A stretch of DNA of 64,000 nucleotides from Pseudomonas sp. Au-Pse12. GTDB lineage: Bacteria; Pseudomonadota; Gammaproteobacteria; Pseudomonadales; Pseudomonadaceae. The position numbers and the translations under genes are program-made. Position 1 is the stretch's first letter, and the number at the start of each line of letters is the position of its first letter. Of the stretch, positions 37,898-44,543 are shown piece after piece. The notes under the pieces are model-generated. The model worked only from the letters and a program-made list of their open reading frames with translations. It was not told where the DNA came from and ran no database searches. The stretch lies in NCBI RefSeq assembly GCF_021341665.1, contig NZ_JAJTTH010000001.1, positions 620,001 to 684,000 on the forward strand, written 5' to 3'.

Positions 37898-38359
37898 GGT
37901 TACCTCGGGTTTACACAGTGCTAGTTGCCGGAAAACGGGGTGCTGCGGGTGAACGGACCGTTCATGGAAAGCGGGGAGGTCTTGCAGTCATCAAGGCGCA
38001 TCCAGTTATTGAGCCAGCGGGGCATTCCATGCAGCAAATCAGTAAAGCCTAGAGTTATGAAAAGTAAAGGTGGATCAAGGTGTTATCTTTGCAACCTGAG
38101 AAAAAACTGCACTCGAACGGTTGATTGTCGGGGGCTGAGATTAAGCGGAAAAATGTGAAACGAATATGAAAAATAAGGTAAAAGTCCGTTTTTCTGCGAG
38201 CCAGACAGCTGGTGTTCAGTTTGTTTCAAAAAATATCCACACACCCGGTCGTCGCGACTTTTGTAACCAGTTTTCAATACAGATTGAAGGGGGCACCGAA
38301 AGTATTTTTTTCACCCCGTTGCGGTGCTACCCGGTGCAACCGCGCCCACTGGAGCGTCC
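37898..38359. promoter_or_regulatory. Divergent region between arnB and the tyrosine recombinase
   Basis: About 460 bases with no supported gene, AT-rich from 38040 to 38330. It should carry the arn promoter. One CTTAAT half-site, as in PmrA boxes, occurs on the minus strand near 38141-38146, but the second half at the proper spacing is missing, so PmrA control is not shown. The last 50 bases before the recombinase contain CGGTGC twice. Nothing else stands out. Confidence 0.4.
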
Positions 38360-39301
38360 ATGACCCTTGCACGCCCTGAGCCGGCCGGCAGTGTTGGCGC
38401 GAGCAACCCGCTGAGCCTGTACCTGCAACGGCTGGCGCCCTCCAGCCAGGCGACCCTGCGTTATGTGCTGCAGGACGCCGCCGACCGCCTGGGGTACGCC
38501 GAACAGAACCTCGACGAGATTGCCTGGCACCTGTTGCAGCCCGAACACGTCACGGCCCTGGTGGCCACCTTGCGCGCGGACGGTTATGCGCCCAACACCT
38601 CCTCGCTGTACGTCAACGCCCTGCGCGGGGTGATGAACGAAGCCTGGCGCGCCAGCCTGATCAGCCAGGACCACCTGCTGAAGATGCGTTCGGTCAAGGC
38701 CATCGGCGGCACGCGGCTGTCTCGCGGGCGCAACCTCAAGCGCGGCCTGATCCATGACCTGATGGCGGCCTGCGCCGCCGACCCGCGGCCCCAGGGCGTG
38801 CGTGACGCGGCGATCATCGCCGTGCTCTATGGCTCGGGCATGCGCAAGTCCGAGTCGGTGAACCTCGACCTCGCCCAGGTGGACTTCAGCGAGCGCAGCC
38901 TGCAGGTACTGGCCAAGGGCAACCGGCAGTTGATCAAGTACGCGCCGACCTGGGCCTTCGACAAGCTCCAGGCCTGGCTGGAGCTGCGCCGTTCACGGTT
39001 GGTCGAGGGCCAGGAAGATGACCGGTTCCTGTTCAACCGCATCCGGCGTGGCGGCCACATCACCCGCGAGCGCATCACCAAGCACGCCATCTACTACATC
39101 GCCCGCCAGCGCGGGGCCGAGGTCGGCGTGCAGATCATGCCCCACGACTTCCGGCGCTCGTTCATCACCCGGGTGATCGAGGAGCATGACCTGTCACTGG
39201 CGCAGAAACTCGCGCACCACAGCAACATCCAGACCACCGCCGCCTATGACCTACGCGACGACAATGAGCGGCGCCGGGCCATCGATCGCTTCGACCTGTA
39301 G
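38360..39301 (+). CDS. Orphan tyrosine recombinase (integrase family)
   Basis: The 313-aa protein has the N-terminal SAM-like core-binding domain and an intact C-terminal catalytic domain: Arg in GSGMRKSES, the lysine strand VLAKGNRQ, HDFRRS (HxxR), the later histidine in LAHHSNIQTT and the nucleophile in TTAAYD. All catalytic residues of the RKHRHY set appear present. There is no phage gene, excisionase, transposon end or tRNA nearby, so it may be a resident XerCD-like or DNA-inversion enzyme. Its target is not apparent. Confidence 0.88.
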   Translation: MTLARPEPAGSVGASNPLSLYLQRLAPSSQATLRYVLQDAADRLGYAEQNLDEIAWHLLQPEHVTALVATLRADGYAPNTSSLYVNALRGVMNEAWRASLISQDHLLKMRSVKAIGGTRLSRGRNLKRGLIHDLMAACAADPRPQGVRDAAIIAVLYGSGMRKSESVNLDLAQVDFSERSLQVLAKGNRQLIKYAPTWAFDKLQAWLELRRSRLVEGQEDDRFLFNRIRRGGHITRERITKHAIYYIARQRGAEVGVQIMPHDFRRSFITRVIEEHDLSLAQKLAHHSNIQTTAAYDLRDDNERRRAIDRFDL

Positions 39302-39313
39302 AGCGCCACAGGC

Positions 39314-39526
39314 TCAGGCTGGGGGCAGGCTCGGTGCGAGTTGCCCGCTGAGCTCCCAGACTTCGAGCATCTTCGCGTACTCGAAGGCGTGGCGCGGATC
39401 GCTCTGCAGCCAGTCCTCGAAGGCCCGGCGCTCGGCCAGGCTGCAATCGGCCTCGCGCAGGCGCATGCACCAGTGCGCGGCCTGCATCATCAGCCGATCC
39501 TCGGCGTGGCGGGCGGTATCAGTCAT
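39314..39526 (-). CDS. Isolated FecR N-terminal (DUF4880-type) domain protein
   Basis: The 70-aa protein matches the cytoplasmic N-terminal domain of FecR-type anti-sigma regulators: AEDRLMMQAAHWCMRLREADCSLAERRAFEDWLQSDPRHAFEYAKM in pattern, including the A..W..RL and F..WL..D..H..AY-like elements. FecR proteins are normally about 320 aa with a membrane helix and a periplasmic domain, both absent here. A strong ribosome site (AAGGAG, seven bases from ATG) argues for real translation. It follows the iron transporter genes on the same strand by 107 bases. No ECF sigma gene is adjacent. Confidence 0.75.
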   Translation of the reverse strand: MTDTARHAEDRLMMQAAHWCMRLREADCSLAERRAFEDWLQSDPRHAFEYAKMLEVWELSGQLAPSLPPA

Positions 39527-39633
39527 CGTTCACTCCTTGTCCAGGGTGGCGCTGGCGACCGTAGCGCAGCGGCGTGTCCCCAGTATCGGCGCAACGGCGG
39601 CGCGCGGTCATGATCGAGGACAGCCTGCGCCGC

Positions 39634-40698
39634 TCAAACGCCTGGGCTGGCGCCCAGTACATGCGCATGCCCCAGGGTACGGATGCGCACCCGGCTGCCG
39701 GGGGCTGGCGCGTGCAGCCCGGAACTGCGCACCGGCAACAGCTGTTCGTGCCCCGCGGCACTGGTCACGCCGATGCTCAGGGTGCAGGTGTTGCCGGCGA
39801 AGTCGCAATCCCTGACCACCCCCGGGCAACTACCGGTAAGATCGCCGTCTTCGACCAGCACTTGCAATTGCTCGGGGCGCAGCATGATCTGCGCCGGGCC
39901 CTTGAGTGATCGGTCGCGGATCGGCACTGGCCCCAGGTCGCATTCGGCCACGCCCTGGTCCAACTGCGCCGGCAGCAGCACGGCGTCGCCAAGAAACAGC
40001 GCGGTCTGGGCGTCCCGTGGATGCTGGTACAGCTCCAGCGGCGCGCCGGCCTGGATCAGCCGGCCCTGGCGCATCACCGCCAGCTGGTCGGCGAAAGACA
40101 GCGCCTCGGCCTGGTCATGGGTGACCAGGATGGTGGTCACTCCGGCCTCGGCCAGGAGTCGCGCCACGGCCTTGCGCATCGACGCCCGCAAGCCGGTGTC
40201 GAGGGCGGAGAACGGCTCGTCCAGCAGCATCAGCCGCGGGCGCTGGGCCAAGGCCCGGGCCAGGGCGACCCGTTGCTGCTGGCCGCCGGAAAGCTCATGC
40301 GGCCAGCGCGCCGCCATGTGTTGTTCCAGGGCCACCATGTCGAGCAGCTCGGCAATCCGCTGCTGCTTGTCTGGCCCCGTACCGGCCAGGCCGAAGCCGA
40401 TGTTGGCGGCCACGCTGAGGTGCGGAAACAGTGCGCCGTCCTGCGGCACATAGCCGATCAGGCGCCGATGGGCCGGCACCGCCCCCTGGTCGTCCACCAG
40501 CACCTGGCCATTGAGGGTGATGCGCCCGCGGTCGGGGTATTCAAAGCCGGCGATCATCCGCAGCAAGGTGGTCTTGCCGGAACCCGAGGGGCCGACAATC
40601 GCCGTGCGGCTGCCAGCCGGCACGCTGAGGCTGATGTCCTGCACCGCCGGGGCGCCGCCGAAGGATTTGTGCACTGCGTGAAGTTCGAGAGCGTTCAT
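39634..40698 (-). CDS. fbpC: Ferric iron ABC transporter ATP-binding protein
   Basis: The 354-aa ATPase has Walker [10 protein letters not shown], signature [15 protein letters not shown], Walker [13 protein letters not shown] and the switch histidine in VTHDQ. A C-terminal OB-type regulatory domain (TOBE) from about residue 245 is typical of Fe3+/polyamine/sulphate importers. It overlaps the permease gene by four bases and ends the fbpABC set. Confidence 0.88.
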
Positions 40699-42305
40699 CG
40701 GCCCGCCGTACGTCTGGATTGGTGATAGAGGAGGCCGGTCAACGGCAGGGACAGCAGGATCATGATCAAGGCGTAGGGCGCCGCCGCCGCGTAGTCGATT
40801 TCGCTGGTCCTGGCCCAGAAGCCGGTGGCCAGGGTCCGGGTGCCATTGGGCGCCAGCAGCAGGGTGGCGGTCAGTTCATTGCTGATGGCCAGGAACACCA
40901 GCGCCGCGCCGGCCGCGGCACCCGGCGCGGCCAGGCGCAAGGTGACCCGCCACAGGGCCTGGAGCGGCGTGCGCCCCAGGCTGCGGGCGATGTTCTCCAG
41001 TTCCACCGGGGCCTGGGCGATGCCGGCGCGCAGGCTGACCAGGGCCCGAGGCAGGAACATCAGCAGGTAGGCCAGCAGCACGGTCATGCTGGTCTGGTAG
41101 ATCGGCCGGGCGAATTTCACGGTGACCGTCACCAGGGCCAGGGCGACAACGATGCCGGGCAGGGAACTGGTGATGTAGTTGCAGCTTTCCAGGACCCGTA
41201 ACAGGCGCCCGGGAGCGCGGATCGACAGCCAGGCCACGGGAATCGCCGCGCAGGTGGTCAGCAGCGCGCCCAGGCTTGCCAGCATCAGGGTCTGCTGCAG
41301 GCTGGGCAGCAGCTCCGGTACTTGCCAGACCTCAAGACCGCCGGCCCGCAACCAGTTGCCCAGGGTCAGCAGCGGCACGCCGAGGGCCAGCACGCTGGTC
41401 AGCACCGGCAGGCACAGGGCGCCTGCCCGCGCCGCACCGCGCAAGGCCTGGATGCGTTGCGCGCGTGGGCTGCCGGAGCCGACCCGGGCGTAGCGCGCCT
41501 GGCCCCGGCTGGCCGACTCCGCCAGCAGCAGCGCCAGGCAGCAGAGCACCAGTACGCTCGCCAGCATGTTGGCCGCCGGGCCGTTGTAGGTGGACTGGAA
41601 CTGGTCGTAGATGGCCGTGGTGAAGGTATCGAAACGGATCATCGCGTACAGGCCGTATTCGGCCAGCAGATGCAGGCCCACCAGCAAGGCACCGCCGCCC
41701 AGCGCCAGGCGCAATTGCGGCAGCACCACCCGCAGGAACAGCGCGCGAGGCCTGAGCCCCATGGATTCGGCGACGTCTTCGAGGGCCGGGTCGAGCCGGC
41801 GCAGCGTGGCTGACACCGGCAGGTAGACAAACGGGAAATAGGCGATCACCGACACCAGCACCGCCGCCGGCAAGCCGTGCAGCGCGGGCGCCAGGCTGAC
41901 CCAGGCATAGCTGTGGACGAACGCCGGCACCGCCAGCGGCGCCACGGCCAGCAGCGACCAGACACGCCGCCCCGGCAGGTCGCTGCGCTCGGTCAACCAG
42001 GCCAGCGCCACCCCCAGCAGCAGGCACAACGGCAGCGTCAACACCAGCAGCAACAGGGTATTGCCGAGCAGCTCCGCGACCCGTGGTCGCAGCAGCAGTT
42101 GGCCAATGGTTGCCCAGCCGGTCTGGATCGAGATGCCGACCACAAACCCCAGCGGCAACAGGGCCAGAAGCGACACCAGCAGCGCCGCGCCGAGCAGCCA
42201 GGGCGGCGTGCGCCGGCCCCGGCGGTGGCGACGATAGCCACTGCAGGTCGCAGCGGCGACCCTGGTCATTTCGGCGACGGGCGCGCGTGACAGATCGTCG
42301 GCCAT
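40695..42305 (-). CDS. fbpB: Ferric iron ABC transporter permease, fused two-domain
   Basis: The 536-aa protein contains two permease halves in one chain, about 12 membrane segments in total, with coupling loops [21 protein letters not shown] in the first half and [21 protein letters not shown] in the second. Such duplication is characteristic of FbpB/ThiP-type importers. It starts four bases after the binding-protein gene. Confidence 0.9.
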
Positions 42306-42309
42306 GGGC

Positions 42310-43323
42310 TTACAGAAGACCGGCCTGGGTCATCAGGTCCACGGCGTGCTTGCTGTTGAGCTTGGCGGCGTCGACTTTGGGCGCATCGAGCTCGGCCAGG
42401 GGCACCAGTTTGGGATTGGACTGCGCGCCCAGGCCCACCGCGTATTCGAACGAGTTGCCGTTCTTCAGCACTTCCTGGCCCTTGGCGCTGGTGATCCACT
42501 TGATGAAGGCCTGGGCCTGCTCCTGGTGCTTGCTGGAGGCCAGCACCGCACCGCCGGAAAGGCTGACGAACGCCCCCGGATCCTGATGCTTGAAGTAGTG
42601 CAGGGCGGTGTTCTTGCTGTTTTCCCCGGTCTTGGACTGGTCGACGAAGCTGTAGTAGTGGTAGATCACGCCACTGTCCACCTGGCCGGCATTGACCGCC
42701 TTGAGCACCGCGCTGTTGCCGCGGTAGACGCTGGCGTTGGCCTTCATGCCCTTGAGCCACTCCAGGGTCGCGGCTTCACCTTTGAGTTCCAGTACGGCAC
42801 TGACAATGGCCTGGAAGTCGGCGCCAGCGGGCGACGCGGCCCAGCGGCCTTTCCAGGCCGGGTTCGCAAGATCGAGCAGGGACTTGGGCAGGTCGGCCGG
42901 CTGCAGCTTGGCCGGGTTGTAGACGAACACCGTGGAGCGCGCGGCGATGCCCACCCAGTTGCCGTTAGTCGGACGATAGGCGGCTGCCACCTGCTCCAGG
43001 GTCGCTGGCGCCACCTTGGCGAACAGCCCTGCGTGGTCCACCAGGGCCATGGCGGGGGAGTTTTCGGTCAGGAACACATCCGCTGGCGAGGCTTGGCCTT
43101 CCTGCACCAGTTGGTTGCCCATTTCGCTGTCATCACCGTTGCGCAGGGTGACCTTGATCCCGGTGTCCCGGGTGAAGCCTTCGACCCAGGCCTTGGTCAG
43201 GCCTTCGTGCTGGGCGTTGTACACCAGGATGCCGTCGGCGTCGGCCGCGTAGGCATGGCCGGCGGTCAGCAAGGCGCCAACCAGCAGGCTGACGGAAAAG
43301 TACGAGGGAATACGTAGGGTCAT
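42310..43323 (-). CDS. fbpA: Periplasmic ferric iron-binding protein
   Basis: The 337-aa precursor has a signal peptide ending [18 protein letters not shown]. Family features are [15 protein letters not shown], the tandem tyrosines in IYHYYSF that bind Fe3+ in FbpA proteins, and FEYAVG near the end. It would capture free ferric iron, perhaps after xenosiderophore release. The ATG at 43323 is used; a longer frame exists upstream but lacks a signal peptide at its start. Confidence 0.9.
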
Positions 43324-43391
43324 GGTCAAGGCCGCTCCTGCGGTGGTTTCTGGAGGTATCCGGCCCACCGCAAACAATCGGCGGCAAGCTG

Positions 43392-43410
43392 AACAATAGG
43401 AATCATTTGC
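43392..43410 (-). promoter_or_regulatory. Possible Fur box upstream of fbpA
   Basis: On the minus strand GCAAATGATTCCTATTGTT agrees with the 19-bp Fur consensus at about 12 positions and includes the strong AATGAT core. It lies about 70 bases before the fbpA ATG. It overlaps a perfect 12-bp palindrome, CATTTGCAAATG, at 43404-43415. Control by Fur would fit an iron importer. Confidence 0.45.
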
Positions 43411-43563
43411 AAATGAAAGTGCGCGCAATGTAGAGCGGCAAACGAGAAAAAATCGTCAAATTTATGGTGAATTCCCGTCATGGCCATACGCTTTGACTGA
43501 CGCCGGGCTCAGCGCCGGCCCCGAGTCTGTGATGCACTCGACAGCGTGCGCCTCGGCTTGCTT

Positions 43564-43609
43564 TATAATCGCCGCGCGAAAACCGCAGTAAATGGAATTG
43601 ACCGGTCAA
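43564..43609 (+). promoter_or_regulatory. Promoter -10 box and 12-bp palindromic operator of the effector gene
   Basis: TATAAT occurs at 43564-43569; the -35 region is poor. Between it and the GTG start lies the perfect palindrome TTGACCGGTCAA (43598-43609), 14 bases before the start codon and close to the ribosome site, a position where a bound protein would block transcription or early elongation. Confidence 0.45.
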
Positions 43610-43623
43610 CCGAGGGAATCAAC

Positions 43624-44079
43624 GTGAGCGCCAAACTCTGCAACAACATCAGTGCCGTGACCTTTGTCAGCAAGTACAAGGTGGTGTGCCAGCCCATTGC
43701 CGACCAACTGAACCTGCCGGTGGAGAACCTGCTGGGCCTGGCCGCTCAGGAGAGCCAGTACGGCACCGGGCGGATAGCCCGGGAACTGAACAACTATTTC
43801 TCCATGCACGCACCGGCACCGCTGCAAATCGGCGCCGAGGCGCCCCTGGGCAATGCCAGCATCAAGGTGGCCAAGTTCGACTCTTTCCAGAAATCCGCGC
43901 AATCCTTTGCCACCAGCTTTGGCGCGGCGGTGCGCGGCCAGCGCGAGCCGATGGCGTTCGCCCAGGCACTGGTGCGCAGCGGCTACAACACCGGCAACGC
44001 CAAGACCGGCGGCCGGGACGGCTTCGCCCAGTACCTGGCGGACATCATCATCGCAGTCAGAGGGCGCATGGCGTGCTGA
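43624..44079 (+). CDS. Glucosaminidase-like T6SS effector candidate (Tge2-like)
   Basis: The 151-aa protein has no signal peptide and consists of a single peptidoglycan glycosidase-like domain. ENLLGLAAQESQYGTGR carries the candidate catalytic Glu43, followed by NNYFSMH, as in GH73-type N-acetylglucosaminidases (NN.FG). Cysteines 6, 22 and 151 could pair after export. It is followed, with overlap, by a lipoprotein gene. This arrangement and size recall the P. protegens T6SS pair Tge2/Tgi2, whose effector structure is GH73-like; identity is from memory. GTG start with GAGGGA six bases upstream. No T6SS core gene is in the window. Confidence 0.7.
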   Translation: MSAKLCNNISAVTFVSKYKVVCQPIADQLNLPVENLLGLAAQESQYGTGRIARELNNYFSMHAPAPLQIGAEAPLGNASIKVAKFDSFQKSAQSFATSFGAAVRGQREPMAFAQALVRSGYNTGNAKTGGRDGFAQYLADIIIAVRGRMAC

Positions 44080-44543
44080 AACTAAAAAGCCCTTCCTGGC
44101 TGCTCGGCCTGGCCCTGGCCGGCAGCACCCTGGTGGCCTGCGCCAGCGATGCCTTGCAGCCGGCACAGATCAAAGCCAGCGGCCTGACCCGCGAACAAGC
44201 AGAACGGGTGCTGCGAGTGGCCCTCAAGCACCAGGACTATCAGCTGCAGCGGCCTGGCGTGTTCATCGACGGTGACCTGCAGGACGAGAACGGCCAGCCG
44301 CCGCACCCCGGGTACTACGATTTCAGCCTGGGCTACAACGACCCCAAGGCCGGCGCCACCGAATACTGGGGCTTGTTCTCGGTCAGCCTGAACACCGGCG
44401 ACACCTGGGAAATCAACAGTTGCAAACGCCTCGATGGCGCCGAACTGCGGGCCTTGCAGCGGCGGGTGATGGCGCGCACCGGCAAGACCCTGGCGGATGA
44501 AAAAGTCCAGCGCCAGGGCCTGGGTTGCGAGGAGGAGCCTTAG
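44073..44543 (+). CDS. Lipoprotein immunity candidate (Tgi2-like)
   Basis: The 156-aa precursor has a lipobox LVAC (Cys23), so it should be lipidated and periplasm-facing. The mature domain is small and mixed alpha/beta, with acidic and aromatic patches (GYYDFSLGYNDPKAG, YWGLFSVSLNTGDTWEINSC) of the kind that plug enzyme active sites. GTG start at 44073 overlaps the effector gene by seven bases, with GAGGG upstream. A periplasmic location fits protection against a peptidoglycan glycosidase delivered by sister cells. Confidence 0.68.
   Translation: MLKLKSPSWLLGLALAGSTLVACASDALQPAQIKASGLTREQAERVLRVALKHQDYQLQRPGVFIDGDLQDENGQPPHPGYYDFSLGYNDPKAGATEYWGLFSVSLNTGDTWEINSCKRLDGAELRALQRRVMARTGKTLADEKVQRQGLGCEEEP

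Follow-up and report, generated by a model that had tools for sequence, protein, structure and literature searches.

The gene at 39526-39314 on the minus strand of the window (the whole stretch of Pseudomonas sp. Au-Pse12 DNA that was analysed, 64,000 nucleotides long) encodes 70 residues followed by a stop, and by sequence its product is a free-standing cytoplasmic anti-sigma domain of the FpvR type. Because the domain is FpvR-type, we predict that it acts on the pyoverdine sigma factors PvdS and FpvI. We lean slightly towards a reading in which the protein acts as a soluble anti-sigma for PvdS and FpvI that is deaf to the pyoverdine signal and is made together with a ferric importer.

The short gene and its FpvR-type domain

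39314 to 39526, minus strand: gene for a free-standing FpvR-type cytoplasmic anti-sigma domain (PF16220/DUF4880), 70 aa, assigned from profile, selection, tree and model
39533 to 39538, minus strand: ribosome-binding site AAGGAG, 6 nt before the ATG of the short gene

The initial annotation had described a lone FecR N-terminal domain of about 70 residues with a strong ribosome site, lying downstream of fbpABC on the same strand, and these points were borne out. The PF16220 profile (DUF4880, FecR N-terminal) matched residues 15-53 of the 70-aa protein at 50.6 bits, where the gathering cut-off is 25 bits, and the gap between the fbpC stop (39634) and the short gene is 107 bp. The protein gave no second Pfam match, and its stop comes soon after the PF16220 domain. 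It lacks the transmembrane segment and the periplasmic FecR domain that characterize a whole FecR protein, and no fecI-type sigma gene is adjacent, the neighbours being fbpC and a recombinase. The 6.98-Mb genome (52 contigs) gave 16 DUF4880 matches; the only one in a short frame was the window gene (71 aa in this survey), and the remaining 15 were 320-478 aa long. A simple scan of 39200-44200 revealed no terminator-like site on the minus strand (two on the plus strand, with shuffles giving 2.4) and no standard sigma-70 promoter.

Relatives were sought with exact peptides of the window protein in one genome per species (84,980 species), a search that retrieves close relatives only, and their genes were called with a simple purpose-made caller. 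The search returned 28 short relatives, every one in Pseudomonas, with lengths of 70-94 aa when the nearest upstream ATG was chosen as the start by script. Strains 14B2 and FD6 of Pseudomonas protegens are among the carriers. Six of the 28 are at the same locus, beside arnB. The short form is conserved and is not a truncated copy: a full-length fecR was present at the locus in none of these six relatives, and all six short genes encode exactly 70 aa. Among the window gene and the six same-locus orthologues, pairwise dN/dS was 0.09-0.34 (21 pairs), and the variable columns numbered 24, 20 and 48 at codon positions 1, 2 and 3, respectively. The identical length, the low dN/dS and the bias towards the third codon position in the seven orthologues indicate that the window gene is real, beyond chance, and, as judged from these alignments, the short gene is under purifying selection at this locus.

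In a survey of 199 genomes of the genus, short DUF4880 frames (<150 aa) were found in at least 14, the window's included, and a survey of 59 genomes of the family added few further short frames among the matches listed. The one that was opened (L170; G239:C2:2924049, minus strand) belongs to another genus and is a 158-aa FpvR-like frame consisting of the domain and a hydrophobic segment, after which it soon ends. A MacA-like gene adjoins it. The periplasmic domain has perhaps been lost independently in this frame. The distant short genes were checked for a shared neighbourhood and have none, the contexts being many and different across species. We found no description of a free-standing FpvR domain among the matches listed from the open-access literature searched, outside which most subscription literature lies. 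In the accessible portions of published work, DUF4880 proteins are named together with an ECF sigma factor in siderophore loci, or are otherwise met as one entry of a domain list.

The assignment to FpvR comes from pairwise comparison, a tree and signature residues. The window protein was 51-60% identical to 18 N-terminal domains of the FpvR clade (70-81 bits), and its best full-length relatives were FecR-type proteins of 331-356 aa. Compared with the genome's other full-length FecR proteins (12 of 14 taken, two left out), it showed 19-41% identity and at most 38.5 bits to 11 of the 12 and no match to one. The tree, of 59 rows, united the 29 short proteins in one clade (support 100/98) and joined the short and FpvR proteins in a clade that excluded the other FecR proteins (97/92); it was built on 76 columns and the other FecR proteins are long branches, so that its inner order is unsure. 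The FpvR proteins do not form one side of a branch in this tree, as expected if the short form arose from FpvR. Residues C20, C28, E49, Y50, M53 and E55 are each present in 28-29 of the 29 short proteins and in 17-18 of the 18 FpvR proteins, and in only 0-2 of the 12 other FecR proteins. The two cysteines, C20 and C28, are kept in the short and FpvR proteins and occur in none of the 12 other FecR domains, and a redox or metal role for this pair is conceivable.

Full-length FpvR, FpvI and PvdS are encoded at other loci of the window genome. Its fpvR copy (C11:528513) has no Sigma70_r4_2 match within 12 kb, and fpvR is isolated from sigma genes in SBW25 and also in Pf-5, according to the available parts of PMC2235872 and PMC3377617, respectively. 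The copy codes for LSYSDYKD and the SBW25 fpvR primer for LVYSNYKD. A string of the LSYSDYKD type was absent from the 12 other FecR proteins examined, and the mark L.YS.YKD was present in 8 of 17 FpvR-clade proteins of other genomes, which makes it supportive, not defining. The 300 bp that precede the genome's fpvR do not contain the SBW25 FpvI motif, TAATGAGAA. In another genus of the family, an FpvR-clade member lies between an FpvI-like ECF gene and a MacA-like gene, and this FpvI-like gene adjoins a PvdA-like gene (names by eye). We take the order FpvI-like, FpvR-clade, MacA-like to be the PAO1 arrangement. The window-genome ECF gene C50:267593, beside a PvdA-like gene, is 72% identical to the FpvI-like factor of that other genus. 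A further ECF gene, C33:57036, we take to be PvdS from its sequence and its PvdL-like neighbour.

A predicted model of the 70-aa protein consists of three helices with a mean pLDDT of 89. Foldseek ranked chains of the PupR cytoplasmic domain first to sixth (best rmsd 1.0 Å, TM 0.72/0.86); the whole-chain E-values against PupR were weak, 0.33 and up, as is to be expected from so short a chain, and the phmmer E-value was also weak (0.038). In the text available from PMC4256889, FpvR1-67 is the minimum region that binds both PvdS and FpvI, and FpvR1-89 inhibits both sigma factors. The part of PMC9249621 at hand sets the N-terminal fragment of FpvR, which inhibits, against that of FecR, which activates. 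Because fragments of FpvR bind and inhibit, and because the domains are alike, the window protein appears to be a natural near-equivalent of a sigma-silencing laboratory construct, and by this analogy we infer that it silences the pyoverdine sigma factors. With 15 ECF factors of the genome as queries and an E-value limit of 1e-4, neither the window nor any of 41 short-gene loci yielded a homologue; the positive controls were recovered in this search, and some of the 41 loci are the same species fetched twice. This suggests that the sigma target is not encoded next door.

The fbpABC importer and the shared promoter element

38324 to 39301, plus strand: XerC/D-like tyrosine recombinase, convergent, from profile matches (context only)
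39634 to 40698, minus strand: fbpC-like ABC ATPase with a TOBE_2 domain (orthologues of 66-68% in L114-L120)
40695 to 42305, minus strand: fbpB-like permease, with two matched stretches of BPD_transp_1
42310 to 43323, minus strand: fbpA/sfuA-type ferric-binding protein, SfuA 1xvy being the best match
43427 to 43432, minus strand: -10-like hexamer TACATT, 21 bp after the TTGACG of the box
43444 to 43459, minus strand: ColR-like box TTGACGATTTTTTCTC upstream of fbpA, agreeing at 15 of 16 consensus positions, matrix score 20.2

The start of fbpA was set at the ATG at 43323 by comparison with relatives such as L052; the longest open reading frame extends to 43428. Among 32 matches of FbpA to PDB sequences, SfuA 1xvy was the best (534 bits, 1.4e-159), followed by the ferric ABC binding protein 8k7n, YfuA 1xvx and HitA. 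Because these are the best matches, the window importer is placed in the ferric Sfu/Fbp class; among the matches listed, none of the three importer proteins reached an NCBIfam cut-off.

The recombinase is present in five of the six same-locus relatives and in all seven fbpABC loci of other species. In 12 of these 13 other loci (L052-L057, L114-L120) it has arnB on one side and fbpC or the short gene on the other, and it shows no obvious membership of a mobile element. Beyond it are arnBCA-like genes, named by eye. On the other side, a gene at 43546-44079 is transcribed away from fbpA, with a common intergenic region between the two, and a relative of it is found in five of the six same-locus relatives. 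We take this gene to be lysozyme/glucosaminidase-like.

The window and two of the six same-locus relatives (L052, gap 91 bp; L054, gap 26 bp) have the short gene downstream of fbpC. In these two relatives no element precedes the short gene, and the box lies before fbpA with matrix scores of 15.6 and 10.6. In the other four (L053, L055-L057), the 6 kb fetched on either side of the short gene contain no fbpABC, and the element otherwise found before fbpA precedes the short gene there. In seven other genomes, fbpABC is unlinked to the short gene and lies between the promoter element and the recombinase-arnB block. A fixed operon partnership with fbpABC was therefore rejected. The iron-import operon proposed in the initial annotation stands for the window, L052 and L054 and does not extend, in the stretch fetched, to the other four same-locus relatives. 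Judged from these loci, the tie to fbpABC is the shared promoter element, with the operon form in some species only. The proposed link between ferric import and siderophore control is supported and becomes more specific, since the FpvR-type domain points to the pyoverdine system, with the shared element in place of a general operon.

A TTGACGnTTTTTT-like pattern was present upstream of 26 of the 28 short genes, and in 23 of the 26 a TAnnnT follows TTGACG at exactly 21 bp; in the other three (L068, L072, L076) the pattern is inside a terminator-like repeat beside the start codon. The element pattern was run over 12 genomes, 11 of them relatives and the twelfth that of the window, and it hit 46 times where its control hit 18 times, so part of the hits are due to chance. 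Eight genomes have a hit at the short gene and seven at fbpA, and the window's own site was not returned by this pattern. A window-derived pattern gave four hits in the genome against three for its control, with the window site as the only exact match. The PvdS iron-starvation box, TAAAT-N16-CGT, overlaps the element in 5 of the 28 short-gene loci (L059, L061, L062, L065, L069) and was not found upstream of the window fbpA. No Fur-like site was detected upstream of the 28 short genes with a few simple patterns, as distinct from a Fur matrix. A related element, TTTGCCGTTTTTTTCACAT or near to it, was seen at L096, L107, L109, L110 and L111 before a conserved gene pair, which in several genomes encodes membrane-anchored proteins with similar C-terminal parts. 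We presume that this pair is possibly of the SdiA-regulated type.

The candidate regulator, the proposed mechanism and its rivals

ColR is a regulator responsive to Fe3+ and Zn. Seven footprinted ColR sites of Pseudomonas putida give the consensus (T/C)(T/C)NA(C/G)NN(T/C)TTTTT(C/G)AC, in the part of PMC2689224 available. The window box does not match this 16-bp consensus exactly, having T instead of A at position 15. Each of the seven footprinted sites has this A; in the boxes that we found before short genes and fbpA it is replaced by T, C or G, which suggests that the regulator may not be ColR, or that it binds weakly. A matrix built from the seven sites scored the window box at 20.2 (empirical p = 0.003; p-values came from 300 shuffles, with a floor of 1/301). 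The upstream regions of 21 of the 28 short genes scored at least 15.8 (p ≤ 0.013), L053 (p = 0.027) and L077 (p = 0.040) had weak scores of about 10, and L052, L054, L068, L072 and L076 gave no signal upstream of the short gene; the 28 loci are related, so that these scores are not independent. Among 559 distinct regions upstream of genes of at least 100 aa in the fetched loci, 14 scored 15 or more, and these were nine of fbpA, one of a short gene, three of one phosphatase gene and one of a dehydrogenase gene.

The relative of this phosphatase in the window genome, identified by eye, has an exact ColR consensus upstream. The genome has seven exact consensus sites against five for a backwards-pattern control, and with the two counts nearly equal any single exact site may be due to chance. 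Some of the sites lie before or near DgkA-like, PagL-like, methyltransferase and phosphatase-relative genes (by eye); in the same portion of PMC2689224, the ColR targets of P. putida include dgkA and pagL. The genome carries colR, colS and a methyltransferase gene in that order, with one ColS at 79% and the next-best kinases at 32% among the matches listed. Regarding ColR control of fbpA, no report was found among the matches listed from the open-access literature searched, and the available part of PMC2689224 names neither an FpvR domain nor fbpABC as a ColR target.

A ColS-like kinase (62-63% identical to ColS) is encoded 4-6 kb upstream of the fbpA element in L114-L118 (for example L114:3332-4591, minus strand), and no match to it was found in L119 or L120. 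A local ColRS paralogue was considered as the regulator and rejected: five of the seven loci have the ColS-like kinase, but no ColR match in those stretches exceeds 38% identity, and the window genome has the regular ColS only. We initially took the motif for an ECF-type promoter; it agrees better with the footprinted ColR sites, and position 15 keeps some doubt. From these matrix scores and patterns, we regard it as an even call that a ColR-type regulator reads the element, with an ECF promoter as the main alternative.

In the mechanism that we propose, the short gene product would be a soluble, sigma-binding cytoplasmic domain of FpvR without a membrane anchor or the periplasmic signal-receiving domain. 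It would bind PvdS, FpvI or both, contacting FpvI chiefly at region 4 as has been reported for FpvR, and so withhold them from RNA polymerase. Because the parts acted on are missing, the proteolysis triggered by ferripyoverdine and FpvA could not inactivate the short protein in the usual way. It would be co-transcribed with the Sfu/Fbp-type importer, either from one operon or from unlinked copies of the same promoter element, in which a ColR-like response-regulator box would replace the -35, 21 bp from a -10-like TAnnnT. Switching on direct Fe3+ import would then damp pyoverdine synthesis and uptake. The domain and its conservation, the grouping with FpvR, the shared element and, in some species, the position next to fbpABC are observed; we infer that the genes are transcribed together, that the protein binds and inhibits a sigma factor, that ColR is the regulator, and that the signal is ferric iron or another metal. 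A wider reading, which we hold only tentatively, is that the short FpvR domain of Pseudomonas serves as an override, in which ColRS-like sensing of external Fe3+ would call up the importer together with an unreleasable anti-sigma and move the cell from siderophore to direct import.

Several other readings of the protein must be weighed. It might be an anti-sigma for another ECF factor, or a binder of FpvR itself through domain pairing or competition. Q41 and K52 mark the short clade, each being present in 27 of 29 short proteins and in none of the 18 FpvR proteins, and the short proteins of most species have a C-terminal tail that carries KKLLT or a similar string, so the specificity of the clade may have shifted. 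The cytoplasmic domain of PupR dimerises, as reported, which counts towards pairing with FpvR. Nevertheless, the FpvR-specific signature residues are retained and no local sigma partner was found (15 ECF queries; window and 41 short-gene loci), and we consider this reading rather unlikely. That the protein is a pro-sigma and not an anti-sigma seems quite improbable. The FecR 1-59 fragment induces without a signal and W19 and W39, among the FecR residues needed for induction, are conserved in the window protein; the available part of PMC9249621, the source for the fragment, also suggests that binding to FpvR stabilizes FpvI and PvdS. The window protein, however, groups with FpvR, and it is the N-terminal fragment of FpvR that, in the same partial text, inhibits FpvI and PvdS.

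If the element were instead an ECF sigma promoter, for example of the PvdS or FpvI type, the short gene would form a feedback loop on its own target. Such a loop would accord with the iron-starvation box overlapping the element in 5 of 28 short-gene loci, and with FpvI raising fpvR expression in SBW25 (in the part of PMC2235872 available). The box is limited to those five loci, however, and is absent upstream of the window fbpA; a response-regulator site would suit the T-tract and the box-N21-TAnnnT layout, and the three further high-scoring regions belong to the phosphatase gene, whose window-genome relative has an exact ColR consensus. We therefore judge the feedback loop unlikely. A non-functional fecR remnant would, like the window gene, be short and without a signal-receiving domain, but seven orthologues have the same length and dN/dS of 0.09-0.34, the 28 relatives of 70-94 aa fall in one clade, and the gene has its own ribosome site and, in most species, its own promoter element. 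This leaves the remnant hardly credible; by its sequence, the window short gene is not a broken fecR.

Significance and comparison with known systems

Control of pyoverdine is understood as Fur together with the FpvA-FpvR-PvdS/FpvI surface signal. If the soluble anti-sigma reading is true, pyoverdine would have a second brake, a soluble FpvR domain that acts independently of the signal and is wired to a different iron importer. It would also mean that a FecR cytoplasmic domain is used alone in nature, and that a metal-excess sensor is connected to the siderophore economy. The short gene was found in some species and not in others, and differences between strains in siderophore output could be due to it.

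The closest known system is the cytoplasmic domain of FpvR (PAO1 PA2388, Pf-5 PFL_2903); the window protein is 51-60% identical to N-terminal domains of the FpvR clade and has the signature residues in common with them, and FpvR1-67 is a laboratory-made near-equivalent in length. Unlike FpvR, the window protein has no transmembrane helix, no periplasmic domain and no signal from FpvA, and it is encoded by a separate gene with a different promoter. The PupR cytoplasmic domain (PDB 5cam, 5cos) has the same fold by model at 24-25% identity, but it is a fragment of a membrane protein and serves another sigma factor, whereas the window protein stands alone. The sigma factor of PupR is PupI. With the FecR/DUF4880 regulators in general, the window protein shares PF16220 with W19 and W39; full-length FecR proteins are membrane proteins, usually beside fecI and a TonB receptor, and the window protein has none of these features. 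The importer resembles SfuABC/FbpABC, its FbpA being similar to SfuA (534 bits) and YfuA, but it has a ColR-like element in front of it and a gene for an anti-sigma domain behind it. The ColRS regulon of Pseudomonas putida is matched by a box that agrees at 15 of 16 positions and by colRS in the genome, and it differs at position 15.
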